Shown here one piece after another: positions 4,270-34,972 of a stretch of DNA of 35,470 nucleotides. The position numbers and the translations under genes were made by a program. The stretch spans positions 1 to 35,470 of the forward strand of contig JAOUNI010000026.1 of NCBI GenBank assembly GCA_029881035.1, read 5' to 3'. How positions within the stretch are numbered: position 1 is the stretch's first letter; the number at the start of each line of letters is the position of its first letter. This DNA comes from Gammaproteobacteria bacterium. GTDB lineage: Bacteria; Pseudomonadota; Gammaproteobacteria; SZUA-229. The notes under the pieces were generated by a model, which was given only the letters and a program-made list of their open reading frames with translations, made no database searches and was not told where the DNA came from.

Positions 4270-5726
4270 GGTTTCCCCAAAGATGTAGAGAGAATGGTTT
4301 CTATATCTATATTAAGACGAGATTGCAATTCGGGAAAAACACCTTTAATAAAATACGCATTAACCGGCTCCAGTTTACCCTTAACAGTTAATTGTTCAAA
4401 ATACTCAAACTCAATACGCCCACATACATTCTCATCCAGAGCGACACTATCATCCACGAGCGTTGCCGACGGCATAGACTTTGATGCCAGCCTGGAAGCT
4501 AAATTAACTGCGTCGCCCAAGACTGTGTATTCCATCCTGCTGATTGAACCCATATTACCCGCCAGCATTTCTCCAGAATTCACTCCCACTCGAAATTCTA
4601 CAATCCTCTCACCTAAACTACTGCGCTTAATATTAAGTTGCTTAATCACCTGCTGAATCAAAATAGAGCAATAAACCGCATGGAAGCTGTGATCCGGGTC
4701 CTCCTCGGGCGCACCAAACAACAACATGGCACAATCACCAATATATTTGTCCACATGACCATGACAAATATGTGATGCCATGTCGATATAACTAAAATAG
4801 GTATTTAGCAGTGTGCTCACTTCTGCCGCGGTCATCTCCTCAGACATTCGGGTAAAATCAACAATATCAGCAAACACGACACTGGCATTAACATTCCGAC
4901 CACCCAGTTCACGAGCTTCTGTATCAGCTAATACTTCCTTCGCCACTTTCGGCGATACATACCGGGATAATGCCTGTTCAACAACCGCTTTATGTATCAA
5001 ACCCTGAGTCATTGAGTTTAGCGAATCACTCAAAACACCAAGTTCATCATTATAATTTTTATCAAATCTTGTTTCATAATCACCACTAGCGATTCTTCGA
5101 CTGGCACTGATTAATTTATAAATAGGTTTTGTGATAATTTTCGATAGAAGATAAGCCGACAATAAGCCTATTATTATCATTAGAAAAGTTGAGCCTATGA
5201 TGGCTAAACGACTACTTTTCTGCGCCTCTTCGAGTACAGTTCTATCAAAGCTGACAACAACGTAACCTAATGCAACATCGTTGGAAATGGCACGCCCAAT
5301 AAAACTAATGAAATTATTATCTCCAGCGCCTTCGCCCCGCCATAGAAAATAACTATTATCAGTCAGGAAAGCTTTTTCGGGCATTTTTGCAGGCACATCA
5401 CCTCGAGAAAGGATTATCTCACCATCAGCAGTAACAATTTGAATTCCATGGATATTTTTTATTTTTAACGATGAAGATACTATAGATTCAATGGTAAGCT
5501 CGTCCTGGGACAGGATAGGCTCCTGAAATTGTTGAGTGATCTGAGTCGTCGTACTAATACCAAACTCATGAATTTGCTCTTCCAGAAGGCGAGATTGATT
5601 ACTGGAGATAAGCGTACCCTGAGTAATCATTGAAACTACTAACAATACCGTAACAACCAGTGCCAGTTTAAAGACAATGGGCAAATAGGAGATTTCCAGT
5701 AATACTTTTTTCAGGTAATACAGCAT
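4266..5726 (-). CDS. Membrane-bound class III adenylate cyclase with HAMP domain
   Basis: A 486-residue transmembrane cyclase. TM1 is about residues 15-38, then a ~140-residue periplasmic sensor region, TM2 about 177-198, a HAMP domain (KPIYKLISASRRIASGDYE..., about 200-250), and a C-terminal class III catalytic domain. Metal-binding aspartates are present in FADIVDFT (about 285-292) and KYIGDCAMLLFG. The Lys before IGD favours ATP over GTP as substrate, and the VLGDAVNLASRL motif supplies the transition-state Asn and Arg. It should make cAMP in the cytoplasm in response to an envelope signal. The downstream TPR lipoprotein gene overlaps it by 4 bp. The cyclase call is firm; the signal sensed is unknown. 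Confidence 0.9.
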   Translation of the reverse strand: MLYYLKKVLLEISYLPIVFKLALVVTVLLVVSMITQGTLISSNQSRLLEEQIHEFGISTTTQITQQFQEPILSQDELTIESIVSSSLKIKNIHGIQIVTADGEIILSRGDVPAKMPEKAFLTDNSYFLWRGEGAGDNNFISFIGRAISNDVALGYVVVSFDRTVLEEAQKSSRLAIIGSTFLMIIIGLLSAYLLSKIITKPIYKLISASRRIASGDYETRFDKNYNDELGVLSDSLNSMTQGLIHKAVVEQALSRYVSPKVAKEVLADTEARELGGRNVNASVVFADIVDFTRMSEEMTAAEVSTLLNTYFSYIDMASHICHGHVDKYIGDCAMLLFGAPEEDPDHSFHAVYCSILIQQVIKQLNIKRSSLGERIVEFRVGVNSGEMLAGNMGSISRMEYTVLGDAVNLASRLASKSMPSATLVDDSVALDENVCGRIEFEYFEQLTVKGKLEPVNAYFIKGVFPELQSRLNIDIETILSTSLGKP

Positions 5727-5855
5727 GATACTACGCTAACAACTTAAGGGAACAAGAAGGATAAAAGCCATTCCTCTAAAAGTCTATGGTTATTGACCAG
5801 ATACATCCATGGAAAGGCGATCGAAATACGTCCCATTATAATCTTGCTATCTGAT

Positions 5856-8831
5856 TCAAATAGCCGGTTGCGCCTTTAGCAATTTTTCGATATCACCTGC
5901 CAGCATGGGCTTACCAAAATAAAAACCTTGCATATAACGGCAGCCATTTTGTAACAAAAACTCTTTTTGATGTTGTGTCTCTACTCCTTCTGCAATGACA
6001 CTCAGTCCCATATTTGTTGATAGTGCAATAATCGTCTTTGAGATCATCACATCTTCTTCATCATGAGGTAGTTCACGTATAAATGATCGATCTATTTTCA
6101 GTTTATTAATGGGCAACCGTTTAAGTTGAGATAAAGATGAATAGCCAGTACCAAAGTCATCAATAGCCAGACTGATACCTAATTCTTTTATCCTGTTGAG
6201 AACTTGTATAGCAACACTGGTATCTTTCATGATTTGCCCTTCAGTCACTTCCAGCTCCAGCCACTCCGGCTGGTAATCAGTTTCTTTGAGAAGCTGTTGC
6301 ACCGCTTCAACAAATCCTTCCTGATGAAGCTGCCTTATTGATAAGTTCAGTGCCAATACACCCGGCTGCAATCCATCGTTATACCAGTCAACATATTGCA
6401 TCATGGTCGTTTTCATCATCCATTGATCCATTTGCACAATTAACCCTGTATCGTATGCAAAAGATAAAAACATGGCTGGCGATATCAACCCCATGGTTGG
6501 GTGCAACCACCTGACCAGAGCTTCCATTCCAACAAATCGTCCCGTTTCTGCATCTATCTGCGGCTGATAATAAACGACAAATTCTTCGTTGCTTAATGCA
6601 TTACGGAAACTGGTTTCCATAGCGATGCGTTCAAAGGCTTTTTCAGTCATCACCTGCGTATAAAACTGGTAGGTATTTCGTCCATCATCCTTGGCCTGAT
6701 ACATCGCTGCATCTGCATTTTTAAGCAACTCATCAGGTGTCGTGCCATCTTCAGGGTAAATGGCCACGCCAACGCTAAGGGTGATATAAAAGGATTGCTC
6801 ACGCAGTTCAATCGGCGCATTCATAGCATTGATCAGGTTTTGTGTGACTTCCACGACAGCATCATTATTAGCCACCTGATTTAATACAATAGAAAATTCA
6901 TCACCACCCAGACGAGCCAAAGTATCCGTCTGGCGAATTTCTTTTTTCAATCTCCGTGAAACTTCTACCAGTAGCTCATCACCAACTTTATGTCCCATTG
7001 AATCATTAATACCTTTGAAATGATCAAGATCAACGAAAAGAACAGCTATTTTTGTATTATCACGCCTGGCCTGTTTGATAATCTGGTTGAGTCGGTCATT
7101 AAATAGAAATCGGTTAGGCAAATCAGTGAGTGAATCATGGTGAGCATGGTAATGAAATGTTTCTTTCTGAATTTTTAGTTCTTCCTGAATAAAACGCCGC
7201 TTTTTAATTTCAAGTGATAGTGAAATTGCATTGACCATAGAGCTGGCAAACTCCTGTTCATCTGGTGCCCACAATTTTTTTTGACCCACTGATGCATGAC
7301 AGATAACACCAATCAGGTGTTCATCCTGAACAATTGGCACATCCAGGATTGAATAAATATTCAGAGGCACAAGGTGTTGATCACTAAACTCTCGGGTACG
7401 GGCATCTTTTCTGGCATCATCGGCCACCAGTATTTCGCCACTATATAGAGCCTTAAAGTATTCAGGATAGTCTTCTATGTTCCTGATAAATCCACTTTCA
7501 TGCTTACCTGAATTACTGTGATACAGATCAACACAGGTCAATACGGTTTTATCATCATTGAATAACCAGATACTGACGCGTTCTACGTGCAATGCCCTTG
7601 CAGATAACTCAGTTGCTTTATGGATAGTGACTATATCATCCTGGTAATCCACCTTGGACCATTCCAGTAATGCCTGCTGATATTCCAGTTTTCTATTCAG
7701 TACATTTTGAATTTTTACAATATTTTCGTTAACCACGTCAGCCATAACAGAAATTTCATCGTGCCCGCTCACAACAATGGGTTGAGCTGTCTTTTGCTGC
7801 TGATTAAGATATTCAAAAAAGTTAAGTAGGCCATTCTGAAATGAATTTATAACTAGAGAAATCGATCTGGCAATCATTGTCCCAAATAATATACCCAGCA
7901 CAATCGTCAGCGCACTCACAACAAGCAATGTTAATGCAATACTGTTACGCTGCTCTGACATATGTTCAACTGAATGTTCAGCTGAATGTATGGCGCTACT
8001 AATAACGCTATTCCCCAGCTGTTTCATTTTTGGCAGAATTTCTGTCACCAGTTGCCGATTGAGGCTGACCCAGGAAAGCATGGCATTTTCATATTTTTTT
8101 GCAGAAACCCTGAACTCTTCCAATTTTTCAAATTCGAAATCCTGATTAGACATTGATTTTAAGCGCTGCCACTCGCTCATCATAAACTGATAATCTTTTT
8201 TGAATGATTCAAATACTACATCATCTGGACTTAACCGATATTTCTTTTCATTGAGTCTTGTCACATAAGTGAATTGCCAGATATTGGAACCATTGTTAAT
8301 TTTTTCAATTGTCTTCTCAGACAGCCTTTTTTTAATCTCCAGCCTTTTTGACTCAACGTATTCCTGAATCTGCAAGGTAATATATTCACCTTCAGTCCCC
8401 AAAATATTTGCCTGTATATTTAACTCTGCCAGTATCGACACACCTTTTAAATACAAATTTTTATATTCATCCGTGGATTGACGTGTTTTTTGCATATCAT
8501 TGCGAAACGTATATTTCCCATCCTGCCTGTCAATCTTATTAAGTATTCGATAAATTTCATCAACATATTTAATGGCATTTTTATAGGCCTGGTTTGCTGC
8601 CTCAAAGTCATATACAGAACCATTCGCATTCAAACGATAATTTTGCTCCTCCAGTATTAATTTATTAGTGTAACGCTCTATTTCTGTGGCAAAAATCAAA
8701 TCATCCAGCTCATTACGAATTATATTAAGTCCATTATTAGAAACAAAAGATAAAATCAATGCGACAACAACACTTAACAACACCAGTAGGTAAGTCTTAT
8801 TTTTAATCGATAAATGATTGGCAATATTCAT
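5856..8831 (-). CDS. Membrane GAF-GGDEF-EAL cyclic-di-GMP turnover protein
   Basis: A 991-residue protein with TM1 (about 13-31), a long helical periplasmic sensor region, TM2 (about 295-320), a linker resembling HAMP, a GAF domain (about 400-550), a GGDEF domain (about 565-730) and an EAL domain (about 745-985). The GGDEF motif is intact (about 642-646) and is preceded by an RxxD inhibitory site (RQTD, five residues upstream). The EAL domain keeps its catalytic set: EALVRW, LALNLS, LEVTEG, DDFGTGYSSL, the KID lysine, AEGVET and the Q of YMQGFYFGKP. Both synthesis and hydrolysis of c-di-GMP are therefore possible. It is a single-gene unit between the cyclase pair and a 345-bp gap. Confidence 0.93.
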   Translation of the reverse strand: MNIANHLSIKNKTYLLVLLSVVVALILSFVSNNGLNIIRNELDDLIFATEIERYTNKLILEEQNYRLNANGSVYDFEAANQAYKNAIKYVDEIYRILNKIDRQDGKYTFRNDMQKTRQSTDEYKNLYLKGVSILAELNIQANILGTEGEYITLQIQEYVESKRLEIKKRLSEKTIEKINNGSNIWQFTYVTRLNEKKYRLSPDDVVFESFKKDYQFMMSEWQRLKSMSNQDFEFEKLEEFRVSAKKYENAMLSWVSLNRQLVTEILPKMKQLGNSVISSAIHSAEHSVEHMSEQRNSIALTLLVVSALTIVLGILFGTMIARSISLVINSFQNGLLNFFEYLNQQQKTAQPIVVSGHDEISVMADVVNENIVKIQNVLNRKLEYQQALLEWSKVDYQDDIVTIHKATELSARALHVERVSIWLFNDDKTVLTCVDLYHSNSGKHESGFIRNIEDYPEYFKALYSGEILVADDARKDARTREFSDQHLVPLNIYSILDVPIVQDEHLIGVICHASVGQKKLWAPDEQEFASSMVNAISLSLEIKKRRFIQEELKIQKETFHYHAHHDSLTDLPNRFLFNDRLNQIIKQARRDNTKIAVLFVDLDHFKGINDSMGHKVGDELLVEVSRRLKKEIRQTDTLARLGGDEFSIVLNQVANNDAVVEVTQNLINAMNAPIELREQSFYITLSVGVAIYPEDGTTPDELLKNADAAMYQAKDDGRNTYQFYTQVMTEKAFERIAMETSFRNALSNEEFVVYYQPQIDAETGRFVGMEALVRWLHPTMGLISPAMFLSFAYDTGLIVQMDQWMMKTTMMQYVDWYNDGLQPGVLALNLSIRQLHQEGFVEAVQQLLKETDYQPEWLELEVTEGQIMKDTSVAIQVLNRIKELGISLAIDDFGTGYSSLSQLKRLPINKLKIDRSFIRELPHDEEDVMISKTIIALSTNMGLSVIAEGVETQHQKEFLLQNGCRYMQGFYFGKPMLAGDIEKLLKAQPAI

Positions 8832-23456: not shown

Positions 23457-23660
23457 CTAGCGTTCTGAACCCGCTTCTTTATGAGCAAGATCAACCACTT
23501 CCATAGCCAGATCTCTGTATTTTTGACGGTAACCGTCTAATTCAGAACCAGCTTCAGGAGTGAAGTATTCTTCCTGTCTTACACCGCTAGCACGCTCTTT
23601 TTCCATAAATTTCTTCTGCATTGCCAGCATTTCTTTAATTTTATCTGTTTTTGCGCTCAT
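23457..23660 (-). CDS. Small hypothetical protein, last gene of the Cas6-like/DsrC-like cluster
   Basis: A 67-residue, charged, helical protein (MSAKTDKIKEMLAMQKKFMEKE at the start, DLAHKEAGSER at the end). I take the ATG at 23660, preceded by AAAGG about 9 nt upstream; a TTG at 23687 would add nine residues and lacks a ribosome-binding site. Residues 6-26 would make an amphipathic or coiled-coil helix rich in Met and Lys, and the second half (about 42-65) another helix. There is no cysteine. It follows the DsrC paralogue gene by 105 bp and may have its own promoter in that gap. I do not recognise the family. Confidence 0.7.
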   Translation of the reverse strand: MSAKTDKIKEMLAMQKKFMEKERASGVRQEEYFTPEAGSELDGYRQKYRDLAMEVVDLAHKEAGSER

Positions 23661-23765: not shown

Positions 23766-24086
23766 TTAATAACCACCTTTACGGGTGCTCTGTGGACACC
23801 CACCGATTTTCAGGCCCTGTTTTGAAGGCATACCGGGGAACATTTCGTACATTTCTTTGGAAGTTACTTTACGATTCCATTTCTTGCTCATGGCTTTCAG
23901 AATGCCACGCTCGTTAGGCTCATCACCGGCCAAAGTTTCTTCGCGGACATAATTAACAACGTCCCATTGATCCTGAGTTGGCTCGATGCCTTCTTCAGCG
24001 AACAACTCTTTAGCTATCTCTTCATTCCAGTCGTTTGCATTGACCAGGTAGCCATTTTCTGTTCTTTCAATTGATTCAAGTGCCAT
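23766..24086 (-). CDS. DsrC/TusE-family paralogue lacking the functional cysteines
   Basis: A 106-residue protein clearly homologous to the 110-residue DsrC encoded at 30126: GYLVNANDWNEEIAKELFAEEGIEPTQDQWDVVNYVRE matches DsrC's N-terminal domain, and KAMSKKWNRKVTSKEMYEMFPGMPSKQ matches its C-terminal part. DsrC needs Cys98 and penultimate Cys109 to carry sulfur as a trisulfide. Here those positions are Leu92 and Lys103; the only cysteine, Cys97, falls where DsrC has a leucine, and the tail is TRKGGY. It therefore cannot do DsrC chemistry in the usual way. Cysteine-free DsrC relatives have been described as RspA and proposed to be regulatory. AAGGTGAG precedes its ATG, and a TATCCCTTT box lies about 95 bp upstream. 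Confidence 0.9.
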   Translation of the reverse strand: MALESIERTENGYLVNANDWNEEIAKELFAEEGIEPTQDQWDVVNYVREETLAGDEPNERGILKAMSKKWNRKVTSKEMYEMFPGMPSKQGLKIGGCPQSTRKGGY

Positions 24087-24204: not shown

Positions 24205-24906
24205 CTAGGTTCCTGAAAAATGAGATTTATCTTCAGTTTCACCAACCGCTTTTATGCCTTTATGAGGCATAAAAATACCACAACCCAAATGCCGATGTTC
24301 GCCGATACCCTGCTCCTGCAAGGCAATGGATGCCTGTTTATCCATATCGGCGACCATGACACTACGTGTTTCAATTTTTTTATCCGGGGTATGGATAATA
24401 TGACCGATACCACACAACATTTTTCTCAGTTTTATATCCCGTTTGGCCAGCTCTTCAACCACCCACTCCATAAAACCATCTTCATCCATACCCTCAGGAA
24501 CGGCCACATAACGTGAAAATAGTGTACCCAGAGGGCTTAATGGTTTTTCTGTAACGGCACCAATCTCCAGCTCATAACCGGCAATATCTATTTTTTGACC
24601 CGTCAGCGCCATCATCTCTTCGACCCGGGTTTTAGGCACTCGCAGATTCATCCGTGTGCGTTGCGACAAATGCATCAACTCGCCATCAGGTGGACGCTCC
24701 CAGCCATTGCCCGAGGTCGCCCCGTGTATTTGATGAATACCCACTTCTGGCTCTTCTCTCAGCCAGGGCAAGATTTCGTACAGCGCCTGAGTCAATTCCC
24801 AGGCATGCATGGTTGGTAACTGTTTGCATTTAATTTTGAATGACAGATCAACTGTATTATCGACCTGCACAAATTCAGTTTTTTTATCGTCGTCTTCCCA
24901 GATCAT
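24205..24906 (-). CDS. Cas6/Cmx6-like CRISPR RNA endonuclease-family protein, solitary
   Basis: A 233-residue protein that resembles, over most of its length, the Cas6/Cmx6 family of the I-MYXAN CRISPR subtype. The shared pattern includes VDLSFKIKCKQLP at 19-31, a histidine (H34) in the LPxxH-aromatic motif, VGIHQIHG (55-62), RTRMNLRVP (83-91), ALTGQKIDIAGYELEIG (100-116), KPLSPLGTLFSRYV (121-134) and the C-terminal glycine-rich loop IALQEQGIGEHRHLGCGIFMP (194-214). Cas6 proteins are RAMP-fold enzymes that cut CRISPR transcripts at repeat hairpins; H34 could be the catalytic base. There is no CRISPR array or other cas gene in the window, and its neighbours concern sulfur oxidation, so a non-CRISPR RNA target is likely. 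Starts 9 bp after the 63-residue gene. Confidence 0.75.
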   Translation of the reverse strand: MIWEDDDKKTEFVQVDNTVDLSFKIKCKQLPTMHAWELTQALYEILPWLREEPEVGIHQIHGATSGNGWERPPDGELMHLSQRTRMNLRVPKTRVEEMMALTGQKIDIAGYELEIGAVTEKPLSPLGTLFSRYVAVPEGMDEDGFMEWVVEELAKRDIKLRKMLCGIGHIIHTPDKKIETRSVMVADMDKQASIALQEQGIGEHRHLGCGIFMPHKGIKAVGETEDKSHFSGT

Positions 24907-24915
24907 TGTAAAACC

Positions 24916-25107
24916 TTATTCCTGTCTGGCAGTAAAAGCCGCTTCCAGCTTGTCCTGCCAATCTTTAGGCGTATCAGAATAAGGGGGCTTTACATCCATT
25001 TGAAAAAACAGCTCACCCTGTTTCGCTCGTTTGGCCAATTCTTTTTTCAGGTCTTCAAAGCTTTCCAGATCATGTCTTTCCAGCATTACTTCACTCAACC
25101 AAAGCAT
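24916..25107 (-). CDS. Small hypothetical protein between the TauD-like and Cas6-like genes
   Basis: A 63-residue protein, MLWLSEVMLERHDLESFEDLKKE at the start and LEAAFTARQE at the end. The gene has a strong ribosome-binding site (AGAGGAA, 7 nt before the ATG). It is highly charged: an N-terminal amphipathic helix rich in Glu and Lys (about 14-32), a short FFQMDVKPPY strand and turn, and a C-terminal helix. No cysteine and no signal peptide. The gene lies 18 bp after the TauD-like gene and 9 bp before the Cas6-like gene, so it is almost certainly co-transcribed with both and may encode a partner of the Cas6-like protein. I do not recognise it. Confidence 0.75.
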   Translation of the reverse strand: MLWLSEVMLERHDLESFEDLKKELAKRAKQGELFFQMDVKPPYSDTPKDWQDKLEAAFTARQE

Positions 25108-25125: not shown

Positions 25126-26061
25126 TTAAACCTGTTGCAGCAGGCCGGTTCCGGCAATTCGATCATAATACCTTGCCCTGTACATTAAGCGCTGCTGCGT
25201 ATCACTATCTTCAAAACCGCTACGATTATGCAGGATGTTGTTACAAATAATACCCTGACCCGCATTCAATCGATGCTGAATGGTGATGGTCTCGTCGGCC
25301 AGCCATTCATTAATTCGTTTGACCGCCTGATGCGTCAGAAGATCATCGCGCCATTCAATATTCCTCTTGCGCGCCGAATAGCGCATGTGCAGACTACCCG
25401 TCGTCTTATCCACCGAGAATACCGGGCCTGTACTTGCACTACGTATTTCTACACCATCCTCGATATTAGAAGGAATGGTCATTGCCTGCGGGTGCATCAA
25501 GGCTTCAATCCAGGCGGGGTTCTCGTCACGCATGTAGATATACAACATTTCATGATCAAGCAGCTGATTAACACCACCTTCTGCTGCCGCACTCACACAG
25601 TGCATAATAATCGTATGAATTTGCCTGTCTGCCGTATTGTAATAACCATCGGTATGCCAGCTCAGCGGTTTATTGGTATATGGAATATACTGATTCCCCT
25701 GTTGCGGCCGCACCTGCAGACTACTGACGCTGTCTTCATCCGCACGTAAATTACCATCCAGTGACACCAGGCCCAGCTGACGCCCTATCTGATGCACTAG
25801 AGTTTTATCCTGCTGCGAAGAATCACGTAATTGATAAATGACCAAACCCAAAACAGCACACCGGTCCTTAATACCCATAATCTCTTCTACCTGAAGGGAA
25901 TATGGGTTCTCAATCTCAACTTTCAATGCTTCCACATCTTCGGGCAGGGCATTTAATTTATTGTGACGCCAGTTTTCATAATCACTGGAGCAGGACAAAT
26001 CAAAAACCTTCTCCGGGTCATACGGCTTACCATCGAAGTTGTCTATATTGAGATCTGTCAT
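25126..26061 (-). CDS. TauD/TfdA-like 2-oxoglutarate/Fe(II) dioxygenase
   Basis: A 311-residue enzyme from the ATG at 26061 (MTDLNIDNFDGKPYDPEKVF); a GTG at 26070 would add three residues. The iron ligands are H136 and D138 (PLSWHTDGYYN) and H278 (NNILHNRSGFED), with an arginine in the following LMYRARYYDR for 2-oxoglutarate. The family includes taurine dioxygenase and gamma-butyrobetaine hydroxylase, so a sulfonate or other organosulfur substrate is possible but not shown. It is the first gene of the minus-strand cluster and diverges from dsrA across a 477-bp control region. Compared with TauD it has extra N-terminal sequence of about 60 residues. Confidence 0.88.
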   Translation of the reverse strand: MTDLNIDNFDGKPYDPEKVFDLSCSSDYENWRHNKLNALPEDVEALKVEIENPYSLQVEEIMGIKDRCAVLGLVIYQLRDSSQQDKTLVHQIGRQLGLVSLDGNLRADEDSVSSLQVRPQQGNQYIPYTNKPLSWHTDGYYNTADRQIHTIIMHCVSAAAEGGVNQLLDHEMLYIYMRDENPAWIEALMHPQAMTIPSNIEDGVEIRSASTGPVFSVDKTTGSLHMRYSARKRNIEWRDDLLTHQAVKRINEWLADETITIQHRLNAGQGIICNNILHNRSGFEDSDTQQRLMYRARYYDRIAGTGLLQQV

Positions 26062-26232
26062 ACTCTGCACAGTGCCATTAAAATTAGCGAAGAAGAATGG
26101 CGATATTCCATCCAGAAAACAATATCACTTAAGGGCATACCATTAATTTGCTGAACACCCTGTTATTTACTCATTAATATACATTGGTATATAAGCTTAA
26201 ATACAAGTAATAGATTCATATCAACCAAAGCC

Positions 26233-26538: not shown

Positions 26539-27801
26539 ATGGCCAAAAAGATATACGAAACACCAATGCTGGACGTCCTTGAAGAAGGACCATGGCCCAG
26601 TTTTATTTCTGGTATCAAGAAACTTCGTGACGAACATCCAGATGAACGCATCCAGAACGTAACAAGCAGTCTTCTTGGCCAGCTTGAGCATTCTTACGAA
26701 ACTCGTAAAGGTTACTGGAAAGGCGGTACTGTATCTGTATTTGGTTATGGTGGTGGTATCATTCCTCGTTTCTCAGAAGTAGCTTCTGCTTTCCCTGAGT
26801 CAAAAGAATTCCATACCATTCGTGTTCAACCACCTGCTGGTAACCACTACACCACAGCTATGTTGCGCCAGTTAGGCGACAGCTGGGAAAAATGGGGTTC
26901 AGGCCTGCAAACATTCCACGGCCAGACTGGTAACATTATGTTTATCGGTACTGATACAGAGAACACACAACACTTCTTTGATGAAATCAATGAATATGGC
27001 TGGGATCTTGGTGGTGCAGGCCCATGTGTACGTACTGCAATGTCCTGTGTAGGCGCTTCACGTTGTGAAATGTCTAACTGTAACGAGCACGGCATTCACC
27101 GCCATCTGGTCAACAACTTCACTGATGATGTTCACCGCCCTGCTCTGCCTTACAAATTCAAATTTAAAGTTTCAGGTTGCCCTAATGACTGCCAGAACGC
27201 GATCGAGCGTGCTGATATGGCTGTTATCGGTACATGGCGCGATGAAATGAAAGTTGACCAGGAAGCGATCAAAGCTTATATGGGCACTAAAGGCCGTCAG
27301 TACATCAATGACAACGTTATTACTCGTTGTCCAACCAATGCACTGACTTTGAACGACGACGACACACTGACTGTTGATAATCACAACTGTGTTCGTTGCA
27401 TGCACTGCCTGAACGTTCTGCCTAAAGCTCTTCACCCCGGTGATGACAAAGGCGTTACCATCCTGATCGGCGGCAAACGTACACTGAAAATCGGCGACAT
27501 GATGGGTACCGTAGTTATTCCATTCAAAAAACTGGAAACAGAAGAAGATTACGAAAGCCTGGTTGAGTTAGCTGAAGAAATTATTGATTTCTGGGCTGAA
27601 AATGGTCTCGAGCATGAGCGTTGTGGTGAAATGATCGAACGTATCGGCCTGGTTAACTTCCTTGAAGGCGTTGATTTTGATCTGGAAGTTGATCCAAACA
27701 TGGTCAGCAACCCACGTCAAAGCTCATACATCCGCATGGATGGCTGGGATGATGAAGCTGTTAAGTGGTTCGAACGCAAACAAGAAGCTGCTAACGCGTA
27801 A
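26539..27801 (+). CDS. dsrA: Dissimilatory sulfite reductase alpha subunit (oxidative type)
   Basis: A 420-residue cytoplasmic subunit of the alpha2beta2 siroheme sulfite reductase, which here runs in reverse, oxidising sulfane sulfur to sulfite. I start it at the ATG at 26539, 7 nt after AGGAGA. Siroheme-[4Fe-4S] cysteines are C170 and C176 (SCVGASRC) and C214 and C218 (SGCPNDC). A ferredoxin insert follows with C264, C284, C287 and C290 (RCPTNAL, NCVRCMHC). The C-terminus FERKQEAANA is normal length. It leads the dsr operon; dsrB follows after 77 bp containing a strong hairpin. Confidence 0.97.
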   Translation: MAKKIYETPMLDVLEEGPWPSFISGIKKLRDEHPDERIQNVTSSLLGQLEHSYETRKGYWKGGTVSVFGYGGGIIPRFSEVASAFPESKEFHTIRVQPPAGNHYTTAMLRQLGDSWEKWGSGLQTFHGQTGNIMFIGTDTENTQHFFDEINEYGWDLGGAGPCVRTAMSCVGASRCEMSNCNEHGIHRHLVNNFTDDVHRPALPYKFKFKVSGCPNDCQNAIERADMAVIGTWRDEMKVDQEAIKAYMGTKGRQYINDNVITRCPTNALTLNDDDTLTVDNHNCVRCMHCLNVLPKALHPGDDKGVTILIGGKRTLKIGDMMGTVVIPFKKLETEEDYESLVELAEEIIDFWAENGLEHERCGEMIERIGLVNFLEGVDFDLEVDPNMVSNPRQSSYIRMDGWDDEAVKWFERKQEAANA

Positions 27802-27822
27802 TCTAAACAATTAATTAACACG

Positions 27823-27842
27823 GAGGGGGTAAACGCCCCCTC
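27823..27842 (+). other. G5/C5 RNA hairpin between dsrA and dsrB
   Basis: GAGGGGG (27823-27829) pairs perfectly with CCCCCTC (27836-27842) around TAAACG. It is not followed by a T-run but by TAAATAACATATT, so it is not a typical terminator. It may stabilise or mark a processing site between dsrA and dsrB in the mRNA. A similar hairpin lies between dsrC and dsrM. Confidence 0.8.
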
Positions 27843-27878
27843 TAAATAACATATTTAGAAATTATTTGAGGAATAACC

Positions 27879-28952
27879 ATGAGTGATAAACCTCGTTCAC
27901 CGATTGAATCTGGATGTCCTGACGCATTCCAGTACATGCACCCAGTAATGCGCAAAAACTATGGCGCATGGAAATATCATGAGCATCCAAAACCAGGTGT
28001 ACTCCGCCACGTAGCTTATAGCGGCGACGAAATCTGGACTGTACGTGTTGGTACACAGCGTATTCTTGATATCTTCTCTTTACGCAAAATTTGTGACATT
28101 GGTGATGAATTTGCAGATGGTTACATTCACTTTACTATCCGTAGTAACGTTGAATACATGGTATCTGATGCTTCTAAAGTTGAGCCGCTGATCAAAGCGA
28201 TCACCGATGCTGGCTTCATTGTAGGTGGTACACAGAACTCTGTTGCCATGATGTCACATACACAGGGCTGGTTGCATTGCGACATTCCTGGTACTGATGC
28301 ATCTGGTGTTGTTAAGTCAATGATGGATGAGCTAATCGATGAATTCCGTAATGCTGACATGCCAAACCGCGTGCACATTACTACTTCTTGCTGCCAGATT
28401 AACTGTGGTGGTCAGGGCGATATCGCAATTAACATTCAGCACACTAAACCGCCTAAGATCAACCATGACCTGGTATCTAACGTCTGTGAGCGTCCAACGG
28501 TTGTTGCGCGTTGCCCAGTTGCAGCGATTCGTCCTGCTATGGTTAACGGCAAACCTACACTGGAAGTTGATGAGAAAAAATGTATTTGCTGTGGCGCGTG
28601 TTTCCCTCCTTGCCCTCCAATGCAGATCAACGATGCTGAGCATTCTAAATTAGCTGTTTGGGTTGGTGGTAATCACTCAAATGCACGTAGCAAACCTACT
28701 TTCCAGAAACTGGTTGCTGCCGGTATTCCAAACAACCCACCACGCTGGCCAGAAGCGACTGCTATTGTTAAGCAAATTCTTAAAGCTTATAAAGCAGACG
28801 CGAAAGACTGGGAACGTATGAATGACTGGATTGAGCGTATCGGCTGGCCACGTTTCTTCGAGAAAACAGGTCTTCCGTTCACCAAATACCATATTGATAA
28901 CTGGCGCGGTGCACGAAACAGCTTAAATGCATCTACCCATATTCGTTTCTAA
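27879..28952 (+). CDS. dsrB: Dissimilatory sulfite reductase beta subunit (oxidative type)
   Basis: A 357-residue subunit pairing with DsrA; it carries the active siroheme. Cysteines for the siroheme-[4Fe-4S] centre are C134 (GWLHCDIPG) and C171, C172 and C176 (TSCCQINCGG). The ferredoxin domain has C212 (RCPVAAI) and C235, C238 and C241 (KCICCGAC). A GAGG ribosome-binding site precedes the ATG. dsrE starts 9 bp downstream. The lengths and cysteine spacings match functional DsrB. Confidence 0.97.
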   Translation: MSDKPRSPIESGCPDAFQYMHPVMRKNYGAWKYHEHPKPGVLRHVAYSGDEIWTVRVGTQRILDIFSLRKICDIGDEFADGYIHFTIRSNVEYMVSDASKVEPLIKAITDAGFIVGGTQNSVAMMSHTQGWLHCDIPGTDASGVVKSMMDELIDEFRNADMPNRVHITTSCCQINCGGQGDIAINIQHTKPPKINHDLVSNVCERPTVVARCPVAAIRPAMVNGKPTLEVDEKKCICCGACFPPCPPMQINDAEHSKLAVWVGGNHSNARSKPTFQKLVAAGIPNNPPRWPEATAIVKQILKAYKADAKDWERMNDWIERIGWPRFFEKTGLPFTKYHIDNWRGARNSLNASTHIRF

Positions 28953-28961
28953 GGTGAATCT

Positions 28962-29354
28962 GTGAAAATATCACTTCAAATTAACGAAGGTCCTTACCAG
29001 CATCAGGCATCTGATAGTGCAATTCAGTTCACTAAAGCTGCGCTGGCAAAAGGTCACGAAATTTTCCGAGTGTTCTTTTATCATGATGGTGTGAATAACG
29101 CGACTCGTCTCGCTATTCCGCCTCAGGATGACCGCAATATCACTGAACAGTGGGTTGCTTTACAAAAAGAACATAATCTTGATCTGGTTGTTTGTATCGC
29201 TGCAGCCCAACGTCGTGGCATGATCGACGAAGACGAAATGAAACGTCAGGGTAAAGATGCTAACAATATTTCAGAAGGCTTCCGTATATCCGGCCTGGGT
29301 CAGTTGATCGAAGCCGGTATTGAAGCAGATCGTTTAGTCGTATTCGGTGCATAA
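28962..29354 (+). CDS. dsrE: Sulfur carrier protein DsrE
   Basis: A 130-residue protein with a GTG start 9 bp after dsrB (MKISLQINEGPYQHQAS). It is the TusD homologue in the DsrE2F2H2 hexamer, which passes persulfide sulfur to DsrC. The sulfur-binding cysteine is C78 (LDLVVCIAAAQRRG), the same number as the active cysteine described in Allochromatium DsrE. Presence of dsrEFH is a marker of the sulfur-oxidising form of the Dsr pathway. dsrF follows after 11 bp. Confidence 0.95.
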   Translation: MKISLQINEGPYQHQASDSAIQFTKAALAKGHEIFRVFFYHDGVNNATRLAIPPQDDRNITEQWVALQKEHNLDLVVCIAAAQRRGMIDEDEMKRQGKDANNISEGFRISGLGQLIEAGIEADRLVVFGA

Positions 29355-29365
29355 GGGGAAATACC

Positions 29366-29767
29366 ATGGTTAAAAAATTCATGTATATCAACCGTAAAGC
29401 ACCCTATGGCACTATTTACGCTCTGGAATCTTTGGAAGTTGTGCTAATCGGCGCGGCTTTTGATCAGGACGTAAGCCTCGCTTTCATCGGTGATGGTGTC
29501 TACCAGTTAACTAAAGGACAAGACACTAAAGCTATCGGACAGAAGAATTTCTCTACTGTTTACATGGCTCTGGGTGATTATGACGTAAATAAGATTTATG
29601 TCGAAAAAGAGTCCCTCGAGGAACGCGGTCTCACTTTAGATGACCTTCAACACCTTGTTTGGGAAGATGAAGATGAAGATTGGGCAGAGAAAGACTCAAT
29701 CCGCTTGGTGAGCCGAGCTGAATTGTCCGACGTGCTTGATGAACAAGACGTATTATTGAGCTTCTAG
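29366..29767 (+). CDS. dsrF: DsrF subunit of the DsrEFH sulfur-transfer complex
   Basis: A 133-residue TusC-type protein (MVKKFMYINRKAPYGTIYALESLEV) with a DsrE-like fold: VVLIGAAFDQDVSLAFIGDGVYQL is the central strand-helix. It has no cysteine at all, which agrees with DsrE and DsrH being the sulfur-carrying subunits. The C-terminal half is strongly acidic (WEDEDEDWAEKD). A GGGGAAAT ribosome-binding site precedes the ATG; dsrH follows after 11 bp. Confidence 0.94.
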   Translation: MVKKFMYINRKAPYGTIYALESLEVVLIGAAFDQDVSLAFIGDGVYQLTKGQDTKAIGQKNFSTVYMALGDYDVNKIYVEKESLEERGLTLDDLQHLVWEDEDEDWAEKDSIRLVSRAELSDVLDEQDVLLSF

Positions 29768-29778
29768 GAGATATAAAA

Positions 29779-30081
29779 ATGTCATTATTACATACTGTAA
29801 ATAAATCTCCATTTGAATCAAACACTTTTGATGCCTGTTTAGGTCTGGCTAAAAGTGGTTCAACAATACTATTGATTGAAGACGGTGTTTATGCAGCAAC
29901 CACTGGCAACAGTGTCGCTGACAAAATCAAAAACACTACGGGCATCAACTTCTGCGTACTGGGCCCTGATGCTCAAGCACGTGGAATACAAGGAAAACTA
30001 GCCGAAGGTATCAAGGTTGTAGATTACGAAGGCTTTGTTGATCTGGTTGCTGAGCACGACGCGGTACAGGCTTGGCTTTAA
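29779..30081 (+). CDS. dsrH: DsrH subunit of the DsrEFH sulfur-transfer complex
   Basis: A 100-residue TusB-type protein (MSLLHTVNKSPFESNTFDAC...). Cys20 in the DACLGLAKSG segment corresponds to the conserved DsrH cysteine. VLLIEDGVYAA is the hallmark strand of the TusB family. The gene ends the dsrEFH cassette; 44 bp of A/T-rich sequence with no hairpin separates it from dsrC, enough room for an internal promoter, though none is evident. Confidence 0.94.
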   Translation: MSLLHTVNKSPFESNTFDACLGLAKSGSTILLIEDGVYAATTGNSVADKIKNTTGINFCVLGPDAQARGIQGKLAEGIKVVDYEGFVDLVAEHDAVQAWL

Positions 30082-30125
30082 CTTTTTAATTTTTTATTTT
30101 CGTTCTCAACGAGGAAAGCAATATT

Positions 30126-30458
30126 ATGGCTATTGAAGCAAACGGCAAAACATTTGAAACTGATGAAGAAGGTTACCTGGCTAATCTGAATGAGTGGGAA
30201 CCAGCTGTAGCAACAGCAATGGCAGAAGCAGAAGATTGTCCATTGACTGACGAGCACTGGGACATCATTAACTTCCTTCGCGAATACTACGAAGAATACC
30301 AGATTGCTCCTGCAGTACGTGTACTGACTAAAGCAGTAGGTAAAAAGTTAGGTAAAGACAAAGGCAACAGCAAGTACCTGTACGAACTGTTCCCTTACGG
30401 TCCTGGCAAACAAGCATGTAAATATGCCGGCCTGCCAAAACCAACAGGTTGTGTATAA
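30126..30458 (+). CDS. dsrC: DsrC sulfur-carrier protein
   Basis: A 110-residue protein with both functional cysteines: C98 in GKQACKYAG and penultimate C109 in PTGCV, ten residues apart. DsrC accepts sulfur from DsrEFH, presents it to DsrAB and is re-oxidised or reduced through the DsrMKJOP membrane complex. The ribosome-binding site is GAGGAAAG, 8 nt before the ATG. Because DsrC is needed in excess over DsrAB, separate control is plausible; a strong hairpin lies just after its stop. A cysteine-less paralogue is encoded about 6 kb to the left. Confidence 0.97.
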   Translation: MAIEANGKTFETDEEGYLANLNEWEPAVATAMAEAEDCPLTDEHWDIINFLREYYEEYQIAPAVRVLTKAVGKKLGKDKGNSKYLYELFPYGPGKQACKYAGLPKPTGCV

Positions 30459-30474
30459 GTATTAATCTGTATAA

Positions 30475-30498
30475 CAGGGGGTCTGAATAGACCCCCTG
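30475..30498 (+). other. G5/C5 RNA hairpin between dsrC and dsrM
   Basis: CAGGGGGTC (30475-30483) pairs perfectly with GACCCCCTG (30490-30498) around a TGAATA loop, 17 nt after the dsrC stop. Only CTTTAC follows, so any termination would be partial. Such a hairpin could protect a dsrC-containing mRNA or reduce read-through into the membrane-complex genes. Confidence 0.85.
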
Positions 30499-30552
30499 CT
30501 TTACAACACAAATTTGTAATTTTCAGTAACACTAAAGCGAGACGCTATAACC

Positions 30553-31314
30553 ATGACTGTTTTAAGTATCATATATGTCGTGCTTTTCTATGTAGCTATG
30601 ATCATTTTATTTGGCGGCATAGCCAATAAAATAATGTTATATACACGCGTACCCGCTCCACTAAAAATAGCTGTGACACCTGCTCCTTTAACGACTGGTG
30701 GCGTTGTCTATCGATTATTTTATGAGGTTGTTTTCTTCAACAGCCTTTTCCGTGCCAGCAAATGGACCTGGATTTTTGGCTGGGTTTTCCATTTATCCCT
30801 GCTGCTCGCATTTTTCCGTCATCTTCGTTATGTTATCAGCCCGGATTTTTTCCTGTGGCCACTAGTTAACCTTGAAGTCGTACAAAGTTTTGGTAAATAT
30901 GCCGGCTTTGCCATGGTATTTGGACTGGTAGGTCTATTTGGCAGAAGAGTTTTTGTTGACCGTGTTAAATACATCTCATCAGCTTCTGATTACCTGATGC
31001 TGATCCTGATCGGAATGATCGCTGTAAGCGGTTTAATGATGAGCTTTGTTTCTCATACCGACATCATACAGTTAAAGGCTTTTATTCTTGGCCTGTTCTT
31101 TCTGGATTGGCAGAATTTGCCTAATGACACCATATTACTGGTTCACCTGACTTTAGTGTTAACACTGATGCTGATCTTCCCAGTCAGTAAACTGTTACAT
31201 GCACCCGGTTTGTTTTTTGCACCGACACGTAATCAGGTAGATAACCCACGTGAAAAACGTCATCTGTCACCCTGGGGCGCTGAGATTGAAGCCAAAGATG
31301 GCCGTAACGCTTAA
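30553..31314 (+). CDS. dsrM: DsrM, membrane cytochrome b subunit of the DsrMKJOP complex
   Basis: A 253-residue integral membrane protein related to NarI. Hydrophobic segments at about 3-23, 73-92, 112-132, 149-167 and 196-216 suggest five to six membrane helices. Candidate heme b ligands are histidines in the VFHLSLLLAFFRHLRY region and in LLVHLTLVLTLMLIFPVSKLLH. It exchanges electrons with the quinone pool and with DsrK. dsrK follows after 66 bp. Confidence 0.93.
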   Translation: MTVLSIIYVVLFYVAMIILFGGIANKIMLYTRVPAPLKIAVTPAPLTTGGVVYRLFYEVVFFNSLFRASKWTWIFGWVFHLSLLLAFFRHLRYVISPDFFLWPLVNLEVVQSFGKYAGFAMVFGLVGLFGRRVFVDRVKYISSASDYLMLILIGMIAVSGLMMSFVSHTDIIQLKAFILGLFFLDWQNLPNDTILLVHLTLVLTLMLIFPVSKLLHAPGLFFAPTRNQVDNPREKRHLSPWGAEIEAKDGRNA

Positions 31315-31380
31315 CTAATTTATTACTGCGATTAATTTTAACCAGAAGTAACTGCAACCATAAAAAGCTGAGAAACAAGA

Positions 31381-32931
31381 ATGGCTGATTACGAGATACC
31401 AGAAACGCACGAATTCCCCGTCATTCCATCCATCATGGAAGGCGCGATGGCGCACAGCTCACCTTTTGTTGCCGGCAAAGAATTTCAGGATGACATGGGA
31501 TTCCCTAGTCCAGAAGAGCCTGGCCAGCTGATTGATGGTTGGAAAGAGAAATTTCTGGAATTGTTGCAGGAAAAACTCGGTAAATACCGTTCTTTACAGG
31601 TATTCATGGATACCTGCGTTAAATGTGGAGCCTGCACCGATAAGTGCCACTACTTCATTGGTACCGCTGATCCAAAAAACATGCCGGTTGCACGTCAGGA
31701 CCTGATTCGTAAAATCTATCGTCGTTATTTTACTTTTGCGGGTAAATTATTTGGCAAACTGGGTATGCCCAATTTTGTCGGCGCCGCCGAATTAACCGAA
31801 GAAGCTGTTAAAGAAATGTACAGCTACTATCACCAGTGTTCAGAATGCCGCCGTTGTGCCGTATTCTGCCCATTTGGTATTGATACTGCTGAAGTAACCA
31901 TGGCCGCTCGTGATATTCTGGCGATGATTGGCATGGGTCAGAAATACTCAAATCAAATCATTCCAAAAGTACATAAGATCGGCAACAACCTTGGTCTGCC
32001 TGAGCCTGCTCTGCGCGACACCCTGGAAGGTCTGGAAGAAGAAATTGAAGACGATATCGGCGTAAAAGTTCGCTTCCCGCTCGATGAAAAAGGCGCAGAC
32101 ATTCTGCTGGTTACTCCTTCTGCCGATTTCTTCGCTGAACCTCACGTTGATGGCTTAATGGGTTACGCCAAAGTATTCCACGCAGCAGGGGTTAGCTGGA
32201 CCATCAGTTCAAAAGCCTCGGAGGCCGCTAACTTTGGTCTGTTCATCGGCAACTATGAATCCATGCGCCAAATTTCCCTGCGAATTCGTGATGCGGCCAA
32301 AGAGCTGGGCGTTAAGCGTATTATATTCGGCGAGTGTGGCCATGCCTGGCGCGTTGCCTACAACCACCTGAATACGCTGGCTGGTCCATGGGATTTCCTC
32401 GATCAAAATTACCCTATCCCACAGCACATTCTTGAATTCACCAAGGATTGCCTGGATCGCGGCATTCTGAATATCGACAAATCTGAAAACGATCACATGA
32501 CTCTGACTTTCCACGATTCATGTAACATCGCACGTGCCTCACGTATTGGCGATACCCCGGGCAGCCAGTTCACAACGCCTCGTCAGGTTATTCAGGCTGT
32601 TTGTAATAATTACTACGATATGTCGGCAGAAACTATTCACGACCAGACATTCTGCTGCGGTGGCGGTGGTGGTCTATTGACCGATGACCTGATGGAACTG
32701 CGGATTAAAGGTGCGCTACCACGTATGGAAGCGCTGAAGAATGTCATCGCAGATAACGGCGTAACTCATATGGCGGCAATTTGCGCGATATGTAAGTCGC
32801 AATTCACCAAAGTTTTGCCTTATTACGGCATGACGATGGATCAAATCGTCAGTGTTCATCAGCTTGTTAGCAGCGCCATTATTCTTGATGGTCAGGGCGA
32901 AGAAGCGGAAGAGTCTAACGGAGCAGAGTGA
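31381..32931 (+). CDS. dsrK: DsrK, HdrD-like iron-sulfur subunit of the DsrMKJOP complex
   Basis: A 516-residue peripheral membrane protein on the cytoplasmic side. Two [4Fe-4S] motifs are near the N-terminus: C79, C82, C85 and C89 (CVKCGACTDKC) and C153, C156, C159 and C163 (CSECRRCAVFC). The C-terminal half has the CCG-type motifs of heterodisulfide reductases (FGECGHAWR, DSCNIAR, TFCCGGGGG, AICAICKSQ) that hold the catalytic non-cubane cluster. It acts on the DsrC disulfide/trisulfide. It lies between dsrM and dsrL. Confidence 0.96.
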   Translation: MADYEIPETHEFPVIPSIMEGAMAHSSPFVAGKEFQDDMGFPSPEEPGQLIDGWKEKFLELLQEKLGKYRSLQVFMDTCVKCGACTDKCHYFIGTADPKNMPVARQDLIRKIYRRYFTFAGKLFGKLGMPNFVGAAELTEEAVKEMYSYYHQCSECRRCAVFCPFGIDTAEVTMAARDILAMIGMGQKYSNQIIPKVHKIGNNLGLPEPALRDTLEGLEEEIEDDIGVKVRFPLDEKGADILLVTPSADFFAEPHVDGLMGYAKVFHAAGVSWTISSKASEAANFGLFIGNYESMRQISLRIRDAAKELGVKRIIFGECGHAWRVAYNHLNTLAGPWDFLDQNYPIPQHILEFTKDCLDRGILNIDKSENDHMTLTFHDSCNIARASRIGDTPGSQFTTPRQVIQAVCNNYYDMSAETIHDQTFCCGGGGGLLTDDLMELRIKGALPRMEALKNVIADNGVTHMAAICAICKSQFTKVLPYYGMTMDQIVSVHQLVSSAIILDGQGEEAEESNGAE

Positions 32932-32998
32932 TCTGCATAAAAATTACATTTATTATTTGATTAATACCGGCAACGGTTGAAGCAATAGGAGAACTGGC

Positions 32999-34972
32999 AT
33001 GGCCACTTCCAAAGAAGACATGCAAAACACGAAACTCACCTTCAGAAAATTTGAAGAGGGTAATAATGATTGGGGTTCACTCACCAATAAAATCTTTAAA
33101 GAAGACACTTCTCATAAGTGTCCTACTTATGTTCACCGTACACCACCCTGCCAGGGTAGCTGTCCGTCTGGTGAGGATATTCGTGGTTGGCTGGATATTG
33201 TTCGCGGTATCGAAATTCCACCAGAAGGTGTGTCAATGCAGGAATATGCATTCCGCCGCTCAACTGATGCTAACCCGTTCCCGTCTATGATGGGTCGTGT
33301 TTGCCCCGCTCCCTGTCAGGATGGCTGTAACCGTAATGACGTTGAAGACTTCGTCGGTATCAACTCTGTTGAACAGTACATCGGTGATTCAGCTTTTGCT
33401 GGTGGCTTCAAGTTTGACAACAGCGCAGCAATGACTGGCAAGAAAGTGGCTATCATTGGTGGCGGTCCTGCTGGCATGGCTGCTGCTTACCAGCTGCGTC
33501 GTAAAGGCATCGCTTCTACCATTTTTGATGACCACTCTGAACTTGGCGGCATGATGCGTTATGGCATCCCTGGCTACCGTACTCCACGTGATTACCTGAA
33601 TAACGAATGCCAACGTATTATCGATATGGGTCATATTGAAACACGTATGAACACTCGTGTAGGTAAAGACGTCAGCGTGGCTGATCTTGAAAAAGAATTT
33701 GATGCTGTTTTATGGGCATTGGGCTGTAAATCTGGCCGCGGTTTGTTCCTCGAAGACTGGAACACTACACCTAACTGTGTATCAGCGGTTGATTTCCTTG
33801 AGCAGTTCAATAAAGGCGACATGAAATACACCGCTAACAAGATTCTTTGTGTGGGTGGTGGTGATACCTCCATTGACGTAGTCTCTGTTGCTCGCCGTAT
33901 CGGCACACTGAAAAACTACAATGAAAATCCAGAAGATTCTGCCACTGGTGTAAGCGCTCATGGTGATGTTGATGCTTCTTCAAAGAAACCTTGCGATAGC
34001 GTTGTCCTGACTGCCCTGTTCAAACAGGAAGATATGACGGCGGCTGAACACGAAGTACAGGATGCGCTGATTGAAGGCGTTACCATCATGAATGAAGTGA
34101 TGCCTGTAGAAATCATTAAAGATGCCAGCGGTCGCGCCACTGCACTGAAACTGGTTGACAGTAAGTTTGAAAACAATGCTCCTGTCGCCATTGAAGGCGG
34201 TAAAGAATACATCGTTGAAGCAGATCTGATCGTTGCAGCTATTGGCCAGACAGGTGACATGACTGGTGTTGAAGACTTTGATAATGGTCGTGGTTTAATC
34301 GATGCTGACAACTTCTACCGCGTACCAGGTAAAGATGGTCACTTTGTCTGTGGTGACATCGTTCGTCCACACCTTCTGACTACGGCTATTGGACAGGCAT
34401 CCATTGTTGCTGACACCATCGAAGCTTACCTTAAAGAAGTAAAGGTAGATAAGCGTCCCAAAGTTGATGTTCATCACTTCCAGTTGAACAAAAAATTACA
34501 GGAAGCTGGACTACAGGCTGCTCCTTACGATGCAGCTGATCATAAAGAAGATGGTCAACGTGGAACCGATAAGAGTGCATACGCTGTACATAACTATGAA
34601 GATCGTTCATCACAGGAAATTATTTCAACAGATCATATGTTCCTGGGACACTTCAATTACACACCACGTAACTTACGTACCACTGACGTACCTTCTTCTG
34701 AAGAAGTACTTGGCCACTTCGCCGAGCGTCAAGCAGGTCTGACTGACGAGGCAGCTATCGCAGAAGCGGGTCGTTGCATGAGCTGTGGCATGTGTTTTGA
34801 GTGTGATAACTGTGTGATTTATTGTCCACAGGACGCTGTCTTCAAAGTGAAAAAAGACCAGCACACCACAGGTCGTTATGTTGATACTGACTACAGCAGA
34901 TGCATCGGTTGCCATATTTGTTCTGATGTTTGCCCAACCGGTTACATCGACATGGCTATGGGCGACGCTTAA
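32999..34972 (+). CDS. dsrL: DsrL, NAD(P)H:acceptor oxidoreductase of the oxidative Dsr system
   Basis: A 657-residue iron-sulfur flavoprotein of the GltD family. The N-terminal domain has a [4Fe-4S] set (C41, C51, C55 and C102, C106, C110). FAD binds at GGGPAG (154-159), and an NAD(P)H-binding GGGDTS motif lies near residue 280. The C-terminal extension carries ferredoxin motifs beginning C593-C596-C599 (with further cysteines to C609) and C635, C638, C641, C645. DsrL takes electrons released by DsrAB during sulfur oxidation. An AGGAGAAC ribosome-binding site precedes the ATG. Presence of dsrL with dsrEFH marks the pathway as oxidative. Confidence 0.96.
   Translation: MATSKEDMQNTKLTFRKFEEGNNDWGSLTNKIFKEDTSHKCPTYVHRTPPCQGSCPSGEDIRGWLDIVRGIEIPPEGVSMQEYAFRRSTDANPFPSMMGRVCPAPCQDGCNRNDVEDFVGINSVEQYIGDSAFAGGFKFDNSAAMTGKKVAIIGGGPAGMAAAYQLRRKGIASTIFDDHSELGGMMRYGIPGYRTPRDYLNNECQRIIDMGHIETRMNTRVGKDVSVADLEKEFDAVLWALGCKSGRGLFLEDWNTTPNCVSAVDFLEQFNKGDMKYTANKILCVGGGDTSIDVVSVARRIGTLKNYNENPEDSATGVSAHGDVDASSKKPCDSVVLTALFKQEDMTAAEHEVQDALIEGVTIMNEVMPVEIIKDASGRATALKLVDSKFENNAPVAIEGGKEYIVEADLIVAAIGQTGDMTGVEDFDNGRGLIDADNFYRVPGKDGHFVCGDIVRPHLLTTAIGQASIVADTIEAYLKEVKVDKRPKVDVHHFQLNKKLQEAGLQAAPYDAADHKEDGQRGTDKSAYAVHNYEDRSSQEIISTDHMFLGHFNYTPRNLRTTDVPSSEEVLGHFAERQAGLTDEAAIAEAGRCMSCGMCFECDNCVIYCPQDAVFKVKKDQHTTGRYVDTDYSRCIGCHICSDVCPTGYIDMAMGDA

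Follow-up and report, generated by a model that had tools for sequence, protein, structure and literature searches.

A Cas6-family protein, here called Cas6L, is encoded next to the reverse dsr genes of a gammaproteobacterium, and it is almost certainly a near-fixed companion of dsr in Gammaproteobacteria and not a CRISPR component. Cas6L tracks the dsr genes and belongs to no CRISPR system, so sulfur-oxidising Gammaproteobacteria seem to have taken a protein of immune origin into their core energy metabolism. The window (the whole stretch of DNA that was analysed, 35,470 nucleotides) contains the following features.

23457..23660, minus strand: orf67, a conserved protein of 67 aa, encoded downstream of the DsrC-like gene
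23766..24086, minus strand: DsrC-like protein without the C-terminal Cys of DsrC (PF04358, 83 bits; alignment)
24205..24906, minus strand: Cas6L, Cas6/Cmx6-family protein of the dsr-type clade, 233 aa (Pfam, NCBIfam, PADLOC, PDB, AlphaFold2, tree)
24916..25107, minus strand: orf63, a conserved 63-aa helical protein of no family
25126..26070, minus strand: 2-oxoglutarate dioxygenase of the TauD/TfdA family, whose gene opens the satellite operon and is divergent from dsrA (PF02668, 70 bits; conserved order)
26539..27801, plus strand: dsrA (TIGR02064, 626 bits)
26539 to 34972, plus strand: the dsrABEFHCMKL genes

The coding strand of 24205-24906 is the minus strand, and the plus-strand translation is riddled with stops. 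The order of the satellite operon (TauD, orf63, Cas6L, DsrC-like gene, orf67, divergent from dsrA) is conserved, and alignment of the DsrC-like protein revealed that the C-terminal cysteines of DsrC are missing. In about 20 loci (L162, L163 and L176 included) a conserved protein of ~235 aa is found between orf63 and Cas6L. A Pfam search with this insert protein, orf63 and orf67 returned no family.

Cas6L scored above the curated thresholds of both PF09559 Cas6 in Pfam (213.2 bits, cut-off 26.7) and TIGR02807 cas6_cmx6 in NCBIfam (136.9 bits, cut-off 98.85), matched the PADLOC Cas6 (1.2e-61), and retrieved Cas6 8fcj_B in a PDB sequence search (1.4e-13). The protein contains H34, the segment VGIHQIHG and a Gly-rich loop, IALQEQGIGEHRHLGCG. 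An AlphaFold2 model built with 48 homologues (pLDDT 88, pTM 0.82) has the Cas6 fold (double ferredoxin-like RAMP) and was aligned to 8fcj_B over 198 residues with 27% identity (Foldseek and VIA-align, E = 9e-16, Z = 24.6, rmsd 2.1), and the next-ranked structural matches are Cas6 structures too, of other families. By profile and by predicted fold, Cas6L is a true Cas6 homologue. The first-pass annotation had proposed Cas6/Cmx6-like motifs, which these matches bear out, and had named structure prediction against Cas6 as a check, with lack of a RAMP/ferredoxin-like fold counting against the proposal; the fold is present in the model.

The same annotation had described a solitary Cas6-fold protein tied to the dsr locus and had called for a survey of dsr genomes for linkage to dsrA. 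Among 370 Gammaproteobacteria genomes sampled class-wide, each at least 90% complete, PF09559 was found in 128 and dsrA in 125, both were found in 122 and neither in 239 (odds ratio ~1,620, P-value = 5e-86, Fisher test, a value that overstates independence because the sampled genomes are related), and in 90 genomes no more than 10 kb separates Cas6L from dsrA. The tie is thereby upheld, and Cas6L belongs to the dsr-associated gene set, by co-occurrence in 122 of the 125 dsrA genomes and by linkage in 90. In the three genomes with dsrA only (G132, G144 and G222) the contig ends just upstream of dsrA, and in G144 TauD, orf63 and the first part of the gene that follows them are still seen before the break. 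Of the six genomes with cas6 only, five (loci L130, L132-L135) show the dsr-type gene neighbourhood, in most cases on a contig that is short or broken, and the sixth is G390. One genome counts against a fixed pairing: Cas6L is missing from G031 (one contig, 82% complete), where dsrA and part of a TauD gene are present. Among 58 relatives, PF09559 was found in 30, dsrA over the cut-off in 32 and both in 28.

A separate scan gave 379 relatives, the best 80 of which include Thiothrix lacustris, Marithrix, Parabeggiatoa and Thiogranum; within flanks of up to 6 kb, these best 80 of 379 loci contain dsrA in 62 cases, orf63 in 75, a DsrC-like gene in 76 and TauD in 70. The unannotated orf67 is seen in 64 of the same best 80. 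Cas6L is also kept in genomes of 1.0-1.1 Mb that have no Cas1 (G073, G162, G261, G289, G340 and G403), a size in line with SUP05-like or symbiont lineages. The open-access papers searched contain no report linking Cas6 to dsr, and the dsr papers among those read do not mention a Cas6.

To see what distinguishes this group, 87 dsr-type sequences were compared with nine CRISPR-type sequences. His34 is present in 86/87 and 8/9 of them, respectively, and R89, Q197 and the Gly-rich loop are common to both types. The loop is nearly invariant across the dsr type, with G200, G202, G208 and G210, like H34, held in common with the CRISPR members. From alignment, H34, which lies near helix 1, is inferred to be the candidate catalytic residue; one dsr-type Cas6L (L143, genome G091) has Asn at this position, a point against an RNA role and a natural variant useful for testing catalysis. 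The hallmarks of the dsr type are W48, W69 (in an inserted GNGW motif), R83, E142, K162 and K216. The two types also differ in charge (median pI 6.5 and net charge -2 in the dsr type, pI 9.4 and net +7 in the CRISPR type, P-value = 9e-6), and about ten basic positions are conserved in the dsr-type clade despite its far lower net charge. In the tree, the types are parted by one branch with support 97/81, the CRISPR sample being small and mostly cyanobacterial. Judged by codon substitutions, Cas6L is under purifying selection (dN/dS within the genus 0.086, several dS values being near saturation).

These features bear on what the protein does. We consider it somewhat probable, from sequence and model, that a Cas6 has been exapted to serve Dsr sulfur oxidation in Gammaproteobacteria by binding or processing RNA; the fold and the conserved residues make action on RNA plausible. 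A near-invariant His34 and Gly-rich loop over deep divergence would be hard to explain without a nucleic-acid role. The low charge of the dsr-type clade argues against a generic RNA-binding surface. Of the earlier suggestion that a Cas6-fold protein was recruited to process or bind a cellular RNA, the fold, the tie to dsr and the independence from CRISPR stand; the clade's loss of the strong positive charge of CRISPR Cas6 speaks against the RNA part. That loss is also what one would expect if the Cas6 fold had been repurposed without any RNA function, for example to scaffold DsrAB, the DsrC-like protein or orf63 or to assist in their maturation. The clade-specific invariant residues (W48, W69 of the GNGW insert, R83, E142, K162 and K216) and the conserved operon partners, which are proteins of the sulfur pathway, point the same way, but the candidate catalytic His34 and the Cas6-typical loop have stayed near-invariant over deep divergence, and we regard a purely protein-level role as rather unlikely.

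Under the exaptation reading, a Cas6-family protein would have left a CRISPR context, probably at an early stage of the dsr-bearing Gammaproteobacteria, for the satellite operon of the reverse dsr locus, where it may still bind, and probably cut, one specific cellular RNA. If so, its action on Dsr sulfur oxidation would be post-transcriptional, with orf63, the TauD-type dioxygenase and the Cys-less DsrC-like protein as its partners. The most specific version, a dedicated processor making an H34-dependent cut in one RNA that controls reverse-Dsr sulfur oxidation throughout the gammaproteobacterial sulfur oxidisers, including in reduced genomes of thiotrophic-symbiont size, is put forward tentatively, as one possibility.

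The first-pass annotation had suggested dsr mRNA as the RNA in question, and two hairpins in the window were considered as candidate substrates, neither of which was supported.

27822..27843, plus strand: dsrA-dsrB intercistronic hairpin
30475..30498, plus strand: dsrC-dsrM intercistronic hairpin

According to this proposal, Cas6L would process the polycistronic dsr transcript at the hairpins that follow dsrA and dsrC and so set the stoichiometry of the Dsr subunits. Most dsrA-dsrB and dsrC-dsrM gaps do hold strong hairpins, diverged in sequence, but they occur with or without Cas6L: about a dozen Cas6L-bearing clusters have no stable dsrA-dsrB hairpin, both hairpins are missing from three reduced genomes that keep Cas6L (L160, L161 and L170), and both are present in dsr clusters of other classes that lack Cas6L. 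In Allochromatium vinosum grown on pyrite, the fall in dsr expression is graded along the operon and is smallest for dsrC (PMC11267869), which would suit such processing; however, dsrC has its own promoter in this species (PMC3368242), and this explains its differing behaviour. Because the intercistronic hairpins do not follow the presence of Cas6L, no RNA target is supported, nor is that part of the earlier suggestion, and we judge processing of dsr mRNA at these sites to be improbable. No hairpin conserved across families was found upstream of dsrA or between Cas6L and the DsrC-like gene, and an Rfam scan of the window gave no match. Alifold gave a signal in the stretch that separates the PKHD gene from the DsrC-like gene, but this covers the protein-coding orf67 and was rejected as RNA structure.

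As regards CRISPR, no array-like direct repeat was found within the 35 kb window and no cas3, cas8, cas5 or cas7 among its ORFs, in agreement with the first reading of this DNA (no array or other cas gene in 35 kb), and the gene does not adjoin the array and cas3/cas8/cas5/cas7 set of a type I-MYXAN system. The source genome (2.69 Mb, 98% complete) has a single copy of the Cas6L gene, and its sole Cas1 lies on another contig, beside a Cas9-like ORF and a 36-nt repeat, in a locus read as type II-C.

L081:16141-20000 and L082:542-642 (source genome G000, contig C37, at the contig end): type II-C-like CRISPR locus with a Cas9-like ORF of 1021 aa, Cas1 and a 36-nt repeat

Profile searches of this genome found neither a Cas3 HD domain nor PF03787 (type III RAMP), and the absence of Class 1 systems is taken from the Cas1, Cas3 HD and PF03787 searches. 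In type II systems, crRNAs are matured by tracrRNA and RNase III, not by Cas6. Since these searches showed a type II-C locus and neither Cas3 nor a RAMP, Cas6L was rejected as the CRISPR Cas6 of its own genome; a system there using it in the normal way, which the first-pass annotation had named as evidence to the contrary, was not found.

Across the 370 genomes, Cas1 and Cas6L occur together in 61, Cas6L only in 67, Cas1 only in 89 and neither in 153, a weak, near-random association (odds ratio 1.57, P-value = 0.046). A CRISPR-cas operon adjoins the PF09559 gene in just one of the 128 carriers (G390, with an array). In one locus (L138, genome G362), a CRISPR array at 5487-6655 lies ~3 kb from a dsr-type Cas6L, with no cas genes recognised adjoining the array. 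Although its membership of the Cas6/Cmx6 family (PF09559, TIGR02807) and the nearby array in G362 would allow Cas6L to be a working CRISPR Cas6 that processes, in trans, arrays of loci elsewhere in each genome, 67/128 carriers have no Cas1, the type II-C locus of its own genome is of a type that matures crRNA by another route and 127/128 carriers follow dsr, so this reading is already largely refuted and highly improbable.

PF09559 was not found in 32 sampled dsrA genomes from other classes of the phylum. Five of these other-class genomes are probably oxidative dsr genomes (judged by score and gene set); none has Cas6L, which counts against the exaptation reading, and in four of the five TauD and orf63 lie beside dsrA. 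Of these clusters from other classes (L288 and L290-L292), three have a small ORF and a CysG-like siroheme synthase gene after TauD-orf63. This suggests that TauD-orf63 joined dsr earlier, as a module with a possible tie to siroheme. As these clusters have TauD-orf63 without Cas6L, the pair would be the older partner, and Cas6L looks like a later, gammaproteobacterial addition to the dsr locus. A mobile origin was considered and rejected: the plasmid matches of Cas6L are cyanobacterial Cas6/Cmx6 records, with no dsr-type member among them.

If the exaptation reading is true, a family of CRISPR proteins has also taken up work in metabolism, the Cas6/Cmx6 label in Gammaproteobacteria nearly always names the wrong function, and counts of lone cas6 genes mislead CRISPR surveys. 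Reverse-Dsr sulfur oxidation in Gammaproteobacteria, a pathway of major ecological weight, would gain an unstudied and nearly universal component (Cas6L, along with orf67, the Cys-less DsrC-like protein, orf63 and the TauD-type dioxygenase), and culturable hosts such as Thiothrix would allow direct tests of post-transcriptional control of dsr.

Among the known systems close to Cas6L is the type I-MYXAN Cas6/Cmx6 (PF09559, TIGR02807; for example in cyanobacterial plasmid loci), with which it shares family, fold, His34, R89, Q197 and the Gly-rich loop. The plasmid-borne cas6 of this type adjoins cas3 (and cmx8/cas8 where read) in 6/7 plasmid loci and encodes a basic protein, whereas dsr-type members lack CRISPR partners, carry the GNGW insertion and are acidic to neutral. 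In Gloeobacter morelensis plasmid pGMOR1 (L286), cas6 lies beside a PAPS-reductase-family gene and a cupin gene, not beside cas genes, a non-canonical context. The best solved-structure match, the Cas6 of a type I-B CAST Cascade (8fcj_B), is part of a transposon-encoded Cascade and has Asn where Cas6L has His34. Among dsr-linked accessory proteins, Cas6L resembles DsrR and DsrS of the Allochromatium vinosum dsr cluster in its linkage; DsrR, which is reported to take part in regulating sulfur oxidation (PMC11406059), is IscA-like according to the title of a paper cited there and is unrelated to Cas6.
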